Below, in pieces: positions 48,572 through 52,437 of a stretch of DNA of 64,000 bases (position 1 is the first letter of the stretch; each line of letters starts with the position of its first letter). The DNA lies in NCBI RefSeq assembly GCF_009909235.1, contig NZ_JAAAPO010000002.1:124001-188000 (forward strand). Reading direction: 5' to 3'. The notes beneath the pieces were generated by a model. It saw only the letters and a list, made by a program, of their open reading frames with translations. It was not told the origin of the DNA and searched no databases. Source of the DNA: Novosphingobium ovatum (GTDB lineage: Bacteria; Pseudomonadota; Alphaproteobacteria; Sphingomonadales; Sphingomonadaceae). The translations under genes and the position numbers were made by a program.

Positions 48572-48937
48572 ATGTCGGTTTCTATGCGTCTGTCGCGTGG
48601 CGGTTCCAAGAAGCGCCCCTATTACAAGATCGTCGTCGCCAACGCCACCGCCCCCCGCGATGGCAAGTTCCTGGAGCAGGTTGGCACCTACAACCCGATC
48701 CTGCCCAAGGATTCGGCTGACCGCGTGCGTCTGATCGAAGACCGCGTGAAGTACTGGCTGGGCGTTGGCGCGCAGCCGACCGACCGCGTTGCCCGCATTC
48801 TGGACAAGGCCGGTCTGAAGGAACGCGCCCCCACCAACAACCCGCAGAAGGCTGAGCCGGGCAAGAAGGCCAAGGAACGCGCCGAGGACAAGGCTGCCAA
48901 GGCTGCTGAAGCCGCTGAAGCTGCTGCTGCCGAATAA
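48572..48937 (+). CDS. rpsP: 30S ribosomal protein S16
   Basis: Small-subunit protein important for 30S assembly. The 121 residues start [24 protein letters not shown], followed by VGTYNPI and [13 protein letters not shown]. After the ~80-residue core, an Ala/Lys/Glu-rich tail is added, as in other alphaproteobacteria. The stop shares a base with the rimM start (TAATG). Confidence 0.98.
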
Positions 48938-49443
48938 TGGCGGTGGACCGGCCCGTGACGATGGCCGCTGTTGCGGCGGCGCATGGCATCACGGGTGAGC
49001 TCCGCCTCAAGCTGTTTGGGGAAGGCGCGGGGGCGTTGAAACGCTACCGCGCCTTCAACAACGGCACCTTGACGCTGAAATCGATCAAGGATGACGGCAA
49101 GGGGGGCGCGATTGCCCGCTTTGCCGAAGTCCCTGATCGGACAGCAGCGGAAAAGCTGCGGGGTACGGCTTTGACCGTCCCGCGCTCGGCCATGCCGCAT
49201 CTGGCGCCGGGCGAATATTATTACGCCGACCTGCTGGGCCTGCCGGCGGTGTCGACCAGTGGCGATGCGCTGGGCACGGTCATCGCGGTCGACAATTTTG
49301 GCGCCGGCGACATTCTGGAAATTGAACGCCCGGTGGGCGAGGACGGCAAGAAGCATCGTTTCATGGTGCCAATGCGTGTCGAGGCGGTGCCCGAATGGGA
49401 CGGCGCCCGTGTGGTGGTCGAGGACGCCTACGCGCAGGAGTGA
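48937..49443 (+). CDS. rimM: 16S rRNA processing/ribosome maturation factor RimM
   Basis: Binds S19 and helps 30S head maturation. The 168 residues show AAVAAAHGITGELRLKLFG at the start, then the PRC-barrel part with GEYYYADLLGLPAV, ILEIERP and HRFMVPM. Its ATG overlaps the rpsP stop by one base. In most genomes trmD follows at once, but here three other genes come between. Confidence 0.96.
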   Translation: MAVDRPVTMAAVAAAHGITGELRLKLFGEGAGALKRYRAFNNGTLTLKSIKDDGKGGAIARFAEVPDRTAAEKLRGTALTVPRSAMPHLAPGEYYYADLLGLPAVSTSGDALGTVIAVDNFGAGDILEIERPVGEDGKKHRFMVPMRVEAVPEWDGARVVVEDAYAQE

Positions 49444-49447
49444 GCCT

Positions 49448-49762
49448 ATGGCCATGCTGATTTCATGCCTGCTGGCGCTGTTTTCGGCGGCGGTGCCTTA
49501 TGCGCTGGCGCTGGTGTTGGCGCAGGCCTGCCCACAATGGGGGCGGGACAGAACGCGCTGGGTGGCGGCCGCGCCTTTGTCGCTGTTGGCGCTGGCGGTG
49601 TCGGGAGCGTTGTTGCTGGACGCCTTTACCACCCCGCTCGACGTGTGTGGCCCCGATTGCCGCGATTATGCGCTGTTGCTGGGCGGTGGCGGGCTGGTGC
49701 TGGCGGTGCTGCTGGGCCTGCTGGGTCTTGCCGCTGCTGGGGCTGCGTTGAAAAAGCGGTGA
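49448..49762 (+). CDS. Small predicted membrane protein, unknown family
   Basis: A 104-residue protein starting 4 bases after rimM. Three hydrophobic segments are visible (about 2-25, 38-58 and 74-98). The loop between the last two has TPLDVCGPDCRDYA with two cysteines four apart, presumably outside the cytoplasm. I do not recognise the family. Its place after rimM suggests co-transcription with the ribosomal operon. It may belong with the next two genes, but nothing in its sequence proves that. Confidence 0.6.
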   Translation: MAMLISCLLALFSAAVPYALALVLAQACPQWGRDRTRWVAAAPLSLLALAVSGALLLDAFTTPLDVCGPDCRDYALLLGGGGLVLAVLLGLLGLAAAGAALKKR

Positions 49763-49821
49763 ACGCGGTCAGGTGATCTCGATCTTGGCGGGACTGGCCT
49801 TGGCGTGATAGCCAGCGGCCG

Positions 49822-50400
49822 ATGTCGCCCCAATTTTCCCATTCCGATCATGCCGCGCTGTGGGCGCGGCTGTGTGCGCATACCATCGGCCCTGCCGATG
49901 CGGCGCAGAGCTTTGCCGCGCGACTGGCTCATGAAAACGGCTGGGACGCGGCGTATGCCGACAGGGTGATACAGGAATACCGCCGCTTCTGCTTTCTGGC
50001 GGTGGCTTCGGGCCATCCGGTCACGCCCAGCGATGCGGTCGATCAGGTCTGGCACCTGCATCTGGCCTATACCCGCGATTATTGGGAGCGGTTCTGCCCC
50101 GATGTCCTGCGCCGTGCGCTGCACCATGGCCCGACAGCGGGCGGGGCGGTGGAACTGGCGCGTTATCACGAACAATATGGGCAAACCTTGCGCAGCTATG
50201 AGGCGGTGTTTGGCCCGGCGCCTGCCGATCTGTGGCCGGACGCGATGCAGCGGCTGGTGGTCGATCCCTTGGCCCGGCGGGTGCATCCCCGGCAAGGGAT
50301 GGTGGTCCCCCGCGCGCGGTTGCGGCTGTGGCTGGCACTGGCCGGGGCGGGCGGCGGCGTTTTGGGGCTGGTCATCGGTTTCGCGCTGAGGCAGGTGTAA
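49822..50400 (+). CDS. GRDP-like (glycine-rich domain-containing-protein-like) protein with C-terminal membrane anchor
   Basis: A 192-residue protein. Residues 73-91 (VDQVWHLHLAYTRDYWERF) match the VDxVWHxH...Y core of the GRDP-like domain (PF07173), with His78 and His80 and then Cys92. A C-terminal hydrophobic helix (about 168-188) ends two residues before the stop, so the domain is probably tail-anchored and cytoplasmic. The next gene encodes a TIGR04222-type membrane protein, a frequent partner or fusion in other genomes as far as I recall. Function unknown. Confidence 0.72.
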   Translation: MSPQFSHSDHAALWARLCAHTIGPADAAQSFAARLAHENGWDAAYADRVIQEYRRFCFLAVASGHPVTPSDAVDQVWHLHLAYTRDYWERFCPDVLRRALHHGPTAGGAVELARYHEQYGQTLRSYEAVFGPAPADLWPDAMQRLVVDPLARRVHPRQGMVVPRARLRLWLALAGAGGGVLGLVIGFALRQV

Positions 50401-50437
50401 GGGCACGGGCGCGCATTGCAATTCGGGGGTGATTGTT

Positions 50438-51256
50438 ATGGATGGTTCGGTGTTTGCCGGGGTGTTTGTGGGTTTGATGGTGGCCGCGATGGTGGCCAGT
50501 TGGTTGTTGCCGCGCATGTTCCGGCCCAGCGGGGCGGGTGGCGCTGTGACCGATCCGCTGGAACTGGCCTGTCTTGCGGGCGGCATCCCCCGCTATGTCG
50601 AGGCATTGGTGACGCGGCTGATGGCGCGCGGCTGTCTGGGCATGGATGAGGATCAGCGGTTCACGGTGCTGTTGCGCGATGGGCGCACGGGGGCGGAAAA
50701 CGAGCTGTTGAACAACGCGCAGGGCGCGGATTTCGCCCAATTGCTCAAGGTGATGCGGCCCTATGGCCAGACGGTGGTCGATGGGCTGGTGGAACGCGGG
50801 TTGTGGGCCAATGAGGGCGCGCTGTGGCAGCAGCGCTTCTGGCGCACGGGGCCTTATGTGCTGGTGCTGTTGATTGGCGGCGCGCGCTGGGCGATCGGTT
50901 ATCAGGCCGAGGAAGAGGTCGGCGGGCTGGGCATCCTGATGGCGCTGCTGGCGATCATTGCCTATTACAACTTCAAGGCCGGCGAGCGCCGCACCACTGG
51001 CGGTCAGGCCGCGCTGGAGGCAGCGCAAGCCAGCAGCGAGCGTCTGAAGCGCGCCCCCACGCAAGAGGAGGCCGCAACGGCCGTAGCGCTGTTTGGCACG
51101 GCGGTGCTGGCCGGATCGGCGCTGAACGGGCTGCACCTGCTGCGCACGGCCGGGGCCAGTGATGCCGAATATGACCACCACGATTCGTCCAATTTCTGGG
51201 GCGAGAACCATGTCGTGGGCGGTTGCGGCGGTTGCAGTTCGGACAGTTCGGACTGA
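50438..51256 (+). CDS. TIGR04222-type membrane protein with Gly/Cys/Ser tail
   Basis: A 272-residue membrane protein. It has an N-terminal helix (5-24), a soluble part of about 110 residues ([11 protein letters not shown], then [16 protein letters not shown]), two further helices (139-155, 163-178) and a C-terminus ending [12 protein letters not shown]. This layout and tail match the TIGR04222 family of unknown function. The ATG at 50438 has GGGGGTG upstream; a GTG three codons earlier overlaps that site. It lies between the GRDP-like gene and trmD. Confidence 0.72.
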
Positions 51257-51320: not shown

Positions 51321-52055
51321 ATGAGTTTTGCCGCCACCGTTTGCACGCTGTACCCCGACATGTTCCCCGGCCCGCTGGGGATCAGCCTGGCTGGTCGCGC
51401 CCGAGACGAGGGCAAGTGGTCGATCGACACGGTGCAGATCCGCGACTTTGCGACTGACAAGCACCGCACGGTTGATGACACGCCCGCAGGCGGCGGCGCA
51501 GGTATGGTGCTCAAGGTTGACGTGCTGGCCCGCGCCATTGATCACGCGCGCGAAAACGGCCCCGCAGACCGCCCGGTGATCGCCATGACGCCGCGTGGAA
51601 AGCCGCTGACGCAGGCCCGCGTGCGCGAATTGGCGGACGGCCCCGGCGTCATCCTGCTGTGCGGCCGGTTCGAGGGTTATGATGAGCGGATTTTCGCCGG
51701 ACGCGCGGTTGAAGAGGTATGCATTGGCGATATCGTGCTGTCGGGCGGCGAACCGGCGGCTTTGATGCTGCTTGATGCTTGCATTCGGCTGCTTCCCGGC
51801 GTAATGGGCGCGGCTTCTAGTGGGGATGAAGAGTCGTTCGAGTCCGGACTGCTTGAATACCCGCAATATACCCGACCCACCCAGTGGGAAGGGGCCACGA
51901 TCCCCGAAGTGCTGCGATCAGGGGATCATGGTAAGATCGCCGCCTGGCGGAAACAACAGGCTGTGGATCATACTCGGTCACGCAGGCCGGACCTTTGGGA
52001 GCGTTATTGTGACGCTCGGGGCCTGTCTGCCTCTGATGCGCAGCGCGGAAAATGA
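51321..52055 (+). CDS. trmD: tRNA (guanine(37)-N1)-methyltransferase
   Basis: Makes m1G37 in tRNAs reading CNN and some other codons, preventing frameshifts. The 244 residues belong to the SPOUT class: [30 protein letters not shown], and the trefoil-knot [14 protein letters not shown] with [12 protein letters not shown]. The start [13 protein letters not shown] fits the family. It is separated from rimM by three membrane-type genes and lies 14 bases from rplS. Confidence 0.97.
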
Positions 52056-52068
52056 TAGGTAACGTCAA

Positions 52069-52437
52069 GTGAACCTGATTCAGCAGATCGAGGCCGAGGA
52101 AATCGCCAAGGCCGCCAAGGACATTCCGGAATTCCGCCCCGGTGACACGCTGCGCGTCGGCGTGAAGGTCGTCGAAGGCGACCGCACCCGCGTTCAGGCC
52201 TACGAAGGCGTGTGCATCGCGCGTTCGAACCGTGGCATCAACTCGAACTTCACCGTTCGCAAGATGTCGTTCGGTGAAGGCGTGGAGCGTGTGTTCCCGC
52301 TGTACTCGCCCAACGTCGAGAGCATCACTGTGGTGCGTCGTGGCGTCGTGCGTCGTGCCAAGCTGTACTATCTGCGTGGCCGCACCGGCAAACGCGCTCG
52401 TATTGCCGAGCGTCGCGACACCCGCGGCGAAGGCTGA
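52069..52437 (+). CDS. rplS: 50S ribosomal protein L19
   Basis: Sits at the 30S-50S interface. The 122 residues begin [14 protein letters not shown], with [37 protein letters not shown] and [16 protein letters not shown]. The start is a GTG after AGGTAACG. It closes the ffh-rpsP-rimM-(three genes)-trmD-rplS operon and is followed by a strong hairpin. Confidence 0.97.

Follow-up and report, generated by a model that had tools for sequence, protein, structure and literature searches.

A conserved gene pair between rimM and trmD: a GRDP-like protein and a TIGR04222 membrane protein with a cysteine tail, a possible tail-maturation system

What are three membrane-protein genes doing between rimM and trmD? 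The question arises in Novosphingobium ovatum, in the window analysed here: 64,000 nucleotides of contig NZ_JAAAPO010000002.1, from a genome (G000) of 3.57 Mb. There, rimM, ORF1, ORF2, ORF3, and trmD are co-directional on the plus strand (Table 1), with intergenic gaps of 4, 59, 28, and 64 nt, in that order. The preliminary description had reported three same-strand genes with short gaps at this site, and all three are real. The start codon of ORF3 is either GTG at 50429 or ATG at 50438. A promoter and terminator scan yielded signal no better than that of shuffled sequences.

TIGR04222 proteins are orphans regarded as candidate substrates for enzymes that modify peptides. For other members of the family, or for cysteine peptides, MNIO enzymes and SbtM-like radical SAM maturases are the presumed modifiers. 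In plants, GRDP proteins influence growth, development, and tolerance of stress; we know of no biochemical activity for them. Our literature search found no paper linking GRDP-like proteins with TIGR04222.

Table 1. Features of the rimM–trmD region (window coordinates)
Feature	Position	Strand	Description
rpsP	48572..48937	+	flank
rimM	48937..49443	+	upstream flank
ORF1, 104 aa	49448..49762	+	three hydrophobic helices, C-x3-C loop; no family match
ORF2, 192 aa	49822..50400	+	WHxH (GRDP-like-related) helical domain and C-terminal TM anchor, residues about 168-191
ORF2 conserved core D74-Q-V-W77-H78-L-H80	50041..50061	+	18 diverse bacterial proteins compared
ORF2 second conserved His element H101-H102-G-P104	50122..50133	+	sequence conservation
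ORF3, 275 aa	50429..51256	+	TIGR04222 membrane protein; DUF2207_C relation via its relatives
ORF3 C-terminal tail (C266, C269)	51218..51253	+	no variation among 53 aligned relatives; disorder predicted
trmD	51321..52055	+	downstream flank
rplS	52069..52437	+	flank

A constant pair and a passenger

A survey of 149 genomes of the host's family, the Sphingomonadaceae, found TIGR04222 above the curated cut-off in 13. A WHxH protein is encoded directly upstream in all 13, the window genome included, and the pair sits between rimM and trmD in each of the other 12. The best 80 ORF2 relatives were taken from an independent scan of named genomes. TIGR04222 lies directly downstream in 80 of 80 of these loci, a sample that over-represents the paired form because it comprises the closest relatives of ORF2. 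The two genes overlap, or are at most 20 nt apart, in 76 of 79 loci. The adjacency count proposed in the preliminary description, of GRDP-like genes beside TIGR04222 genes, comes out complete in both sets, with all 12 of the other family genomes and all 80 of the named loci. There is strong support for co-function of ORF2 and ORF3, far beyond chance pairing, and the pair is almost certainly one functional unit.

The proposed three-gene module is not supported by this comparison. Of the 92 related loci, just two yielded an ORF1 homologue, located there at a different position, immediately before trmD; for this reason ORF1 was rejected as a conserved third component. Judged from sequence comparison, ORF1 is a lineage-specific passenger outside the conserved module. 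Co-occurrence beyond close relatives holds for ORF2 with ORF3 (fusions included) and is not supported for ORF1. The cysteine loop of ORF1, given at first as Cys-x4-Cys, is actually spaced C-x3-C (CGPDC). Profile searches with ORF1 gave no family match, including those of the PADLOC (defence) and PHROGs (phage) libraries, which returned nothing credible.

The rimM–trmD interval of several other loci (L020, L023, L024, L066, L079, L105, L107, L115, and L125) encodes small membrane proteins with three helices and a length of about 110 aa; many of them end in a similar short stretch of acidic residues and Phe (DTFE or ETFE, for instance). ORF1 resembles these proteins in layout, but lacks an ending of this type.

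The ORF2 domain and the ORF3 tail

ORF2 carries the sequence VDQVWHLHL along with one C-terminal hydrophobic helix, and so is tail-anchored with the core originally noted. In a comparison of 18 diverse bacterial proteins, residues D74, W77, and H78 do not vary; H80 is nearly invariant, its replacement by Phe in some relatives counting against the mechanism proposed below; and H102 is conserved as well. Its description as GRDP-like holds through transitive homology, but not through a direct Pfam match: ORF2 has no match to PF07173 at E values up to 1. The ORF2 profile nevertheless retrieves the bacterial proteins L136 (E 5e-11) and L137 (E 4e-10), which score 28.3 and 27.0 bits, respectively, and pass the PF07173 cut-off of 22.7 bits. 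Because its profile finds proteins that pass PF07173, ORF2 is a member of a wider GRDP-like superfamily.

ORF3 is a TIGR04222-type membrane protein, as first described, scoring 120 bits on the profile (cut-off, 43 bits). It exhibits the layout of that family: several transmembrane segments, followed by a low-complexity C-terminal tail of Ser, Gly, and Cys. Hydropathy and the predicted structure together indicate long helices at residues 6-30, 129-159, and 165-183, and a disordered tail at residues 247-268. Transmembrane counts by hydropathy vary, and the model contains no continuous fourth transmembrane helix. The tail motif CGGC is invariant among 53 aligned ORF3 relatives.

Predicted models of ORF2 and ORF3 (pLDDT 89 for each) were compared with known structures by Foldseek and VIA-align, which gave generic helical matches and no convincing one; PDB sequence searches with the two proteins gave nothing meaningful. 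Catalysis by ORF2 cannot be read from structure, because these comparisons found no solved fold like its model, which counts against the mechanism proposed below. The conserved histidines and the invariant CGGC do fit metal or thiol chemistry, in keeping with the earlier suggestion of metal or redox chemistry drawn from the VWHxH histidines and paired cysteines.

Fusions and cysteine tails elsewhere

In the window, the GRDP-like domain and the cysteine tail are on separate polypeptides, with the tail on ORF3. In other genomes they are joined. Three genomes from outside the host's family (G568, G677, and G557) encode TIGR04222 fused to a WHxH domain in one polypeptide, as do the cyanobacteria Gloeothece verrucosa and Planktothrix agardhii, the latter with a protein that ends in CGGG repeats. 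The order in the fused form is GRDP-TM-TIGR04222-CGGC. Family genomes that lack TIGR04222 display yet another arrangement, in which a Cys/Gly tail stands on the WHxH protein itself, after the domain and one or more hydrophobic segments.

A wider profile (A5) was built from the GRDP-like domain and searched in 299 genomes of the host's phylum, finding relatives in 21. At least three cysteines are present within the last 40 residues of 22 of 45 distinct bacterial GRDP-like proteins, versus 8 of 213 control ORFs (p 3e-13); the 45 proteins lack phylogenetic independence, short tail stubs enter a few of the A5 matches, and the controls are greedy ORFs. The tails are of several types: CGGC, CSS, CAGPH repeats, and CVPS repeats. 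Several GRDP-like proteins have no cysteine tail, which counts against the mechanism proposed below. One locus (L216:1-2292, from G699; also L224) contains two tandem GRDP-like genes whose products terminate in AxCAGPH repeats.

A similar coupling is present in plants. GRDP2 proteins (for example, AtGRDP2) join the GRDP-like domain (DUF1399, PF07173) to a cysteine-bearing glycine region with the consensus [CG]GGGCGG[GC] (PMC4299439), which is close to the bacterial GCGGGGCGGCGG. The plant form, however, is a single polypeptide with an RNP-1 motif between the two parts, whereas the tail in the window is on a partner membrane protein; moreover, ORF2 itself falls below the PF07173 threshold.

A proposed mechanism

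These features suggest a model in which a single machine would be divided between ORF2 and ORF3. ORF3 would serve as a membrane scaffold displaying a flexible Gly/Ser/Cys tail with its invariant CGGC, and ORF2 would be a membrane-tethered helical GRDP-like domain whose conserved Asp and His residues (D74, H78, H101/H102, and usually H80) are probable metal ligands. It would then act on the cysteine tail, most likely through oxidative or other covalent modification of Cys or Gly, and the mature tail could bind copper or another soft metal, or else serve as a redox device.

Parts of this model differ in strength. The pairing, the fusions, the conserved and cysteine-enriched tails, and the lack of MNIO are observations; the metal site, the catalysis, and the final role are inferred. 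The GRDP-like domain probably acts directly with or on the tail. That it matures or metal-loads the tail, forming a RiPP-like system without MNIO, is a tentative reading that we nonetheless prefer; that it is an enzyme that modifies the tail is likewise tentative, so the activity is best termed putative.

In fused forms with two detected transmembrane segments, the domain and the tail probably lie on the same (cytoplasmic) side, because a basic stretch usually follows the second segment, before the tail. Antoine et al. (2025; PMC12452194) consider TIGR04222 tails to be periplasmic. In that case, the tail and domain would be separated after insertion, which counts against the model.

Metal handling or peptide maturation?

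The alternative that survives best is non-enzymatic metal handling. The cysteine tail would bind copper or zinc, and the His site of the GRDP-like domain would act as a metallochaperone or sensor that exchanges the metal, with no covalent change. The invariant CGGC and the conserved Asp and His residues are consistent with this reading, as are tail sequences that vary freely except for Cys and Gly, and the window genome's module includes no known modification enzyme. We consider it unlikely, however, since GRDP-like genes also occur near double-glycine-leader or short cysteine peptides and exporters, in neighbourhoods that resemble peptide maturation.

One such neighbourhood (L238:1774-7059) comprises three tandem double-glycine-leader cysteine peptides, two GRDP-like genes, HlyD, and a C39-peptidase ABC exporter. 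By gene content it looks like a bacteriocin- or RiPP-like cluster, with no obvious modifier other than the GRDP-like proteins. Another, on an Aureibacter plasmid (L242:4768-6394), encodes a 33-aa cysteine peptide ending GHCSNCGHCSASF just before the GRDP-like gene. Downstream of that gene are a 310-aa protein, with a C-terminus that is PqqD-like by eye (no profile match), and a TonB-dependent receptor.

Enzyme or recognition element?

A second alternative retains modification and assigns it to other proteins: the GRDP-like domain would be a recognition or leader part, and both GRDP-tail and TIGR04222-tail proteins would be substrates of an MNIO, radical SAM, or JmjC enzyme encoded nearby or elsewhere. 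Some plasmid loci favour this reading. The E. coli plasmids pEC16II (L239:3605-6830) and pHUSEC41-3 (L240), mobilizable and 7.9 kb in size, carry an operon for a GRDP-like protein, an ABC transporter, and a JmjC_2 protein, which thus adjoins a GRDP protein with a cysteine tail (ending SVCGCSGKGCGAGCSCNSR in pEC16II). At least 80% of this operon is present in 29 of 5426 complete E. coli genomes, and the literature that we found describes no function for it. A Streptomyces plasmid combines a gene annotated as radical SAM with a 42-aa peptide and a GRDP protein with a cysteine tail. Both plasmid settings also resemble peptide maturation, and in that respect count in favour of the main model, but another enzyme could be the modifier in the E. 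coli and Streptomyces clusters. The many cysteine tails in cis also accord with a recognition role.

MNIO enzymes provide one of the closest precedents, as TIGR04222 proteins have been associated with them (PMC12452194), and ORF3 likewise is a TIGR04222 protein with a disordered Gly/Ser/Cys tail. A distant MNIO gene is present in 8 of the 13 pair-bearing family genomes, again as a recognition role might predict. The pair nonetheless is independent of MNIO: PF05114 has no match in the window genome (control genomes give matches), nor in 4 of the 12 others, so that 5 of 13 lack it altogether. None of the GRDP genes examined lies next to an MNIO gene. MNIO as a hidden partner was rejected on these grounds, being absent from the window genome and elsewhere far from the pair. 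Instead, the constant partner is the GRDP-like gene, a pairing to which PMC12452194 makes no reference (0 occurrences of GRDP). The L238 cluster, where GRDP-like proteins are the only candidate modifiers, and the D-x3-H...H conservation, which resembles a functional site, also argue against a mere recognition part, and we regard this alternative as distinctly unlikely.

Other TIGR04222 genes have a different neighbour. In two loci (L179:6622-8598 and L180:6012-8186), a TIGR04222 gene is followed directly by one for a radical SAM protein, with no MNIO or GRDP gene nearby. The model that these radical SAM proteins resemble most is that of SbtM (TIGR04082), a thio(seleno)oxazole maturase, although they score below its cut-off. 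In contrast, there is no radical SAM gene beside the window pair. Gene adjacency of this kind suggests that the modifiers of TIGR04222 may be interchangeable.

A third alternative is a structural or envelope-stress scaffold akin to DUF2207 proteins, with the tail Cys and Gly as a low-complexity linker and the GRDP-like protein as an adaptor. Loss of the Streptococcus mutans DUF2207 protein lowers acid and oxidative tolerance (PMC10457818). The DUF2207_C domain (PF20990) is matched weakly by 5 of 12 ORF3 relatives (best E 5e-5), though not by ORF3 itself, and the two types of protein share a Gly/Ser-rich C-terminus. ORF3, however, has no extracellular N-terminal domain and does have an invariant cysteine pair. 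A linker accounts poorly for a CGGC retained by all 53 relatives, or for cysteine enrichment across unrelated tail types, making this alternative quite improbable.

The rimM–trmD site

The pair is demonstrably bracketed by rimM and trmD in 62 of the 80 loci; some of the others end at contig ends, and at least nine have neither gene nearby. Protein distances for ORF2 correlate with those for rimM at r 0.82, compared with r 0.83 for rimM and trmD; across ORF2 and ORF3 the range is 0.82-0.84. Horizontal transfer into the site is not favoured as the main history, because both proteins follow rimM in their distances no less closely than trmD does. Vertical inheritance at the rimM–trmD site, with many losses, fits these distances. 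Within the host's genus, ORF2 is limited to 9 of 99 genomes, two of the nine having cis-tailed forms.

The interval itself is loose. Among pair-less family genomes, rimM and trmD are close together in only 2 of 10, and only 5 of the 62 bracketed pairs lie within 200 nt of both genes; other genes, some on the opposite strand, occupy the remainder. The place thus is inherited, but the loose interval gives no sign of selected coupling to ribosomal-protein expression, and the earlier claim that the location serves expression at that level is not borne out. A three-membrane-gene module tuned to ribosomal-protein expression by its place in the rpsP operon is highly improbable: the shared strand and short gaps in the window favour it, as does the position of the pair in many genera, but ORF1 is not conserved, the interval holds other, sometimes opposite-strand, genes, and at least nine of the 80 pairs have neither flanking gene in their vicinity.

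A thioredoxin-reductase-like FAD oxidoreductase with the sequence CPVCDGY (L021:7108-8025; equivalents in L022, L026, L027, and L028) recurs beside the pair in this interval, on the opposite strand.

Significance

Viewed most broadly, GRDP-like (WHxH) proteins might constitute an unrecognised metal-dependent enzyme family of bacteria and plants that modifies, in cis or in trans, Cys/Gly tails or cysteine peptides. On this view, the Sphingomonadales pair would be a split, membrane-bound form that replaces MNIO or radical SAM enzymes on TIGR04222. This wider proposal is possible, if rather doubtful. Linking GRDP-like and TIGR04222 proteins through fusion, pairing, and the shared tail provides a testable biochemical hypothesis for both families, along with tractable bacterial models. 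If the GRDP-like domain does prove to be an enzyme, it would represent a new class of modification, with a branch in plants.
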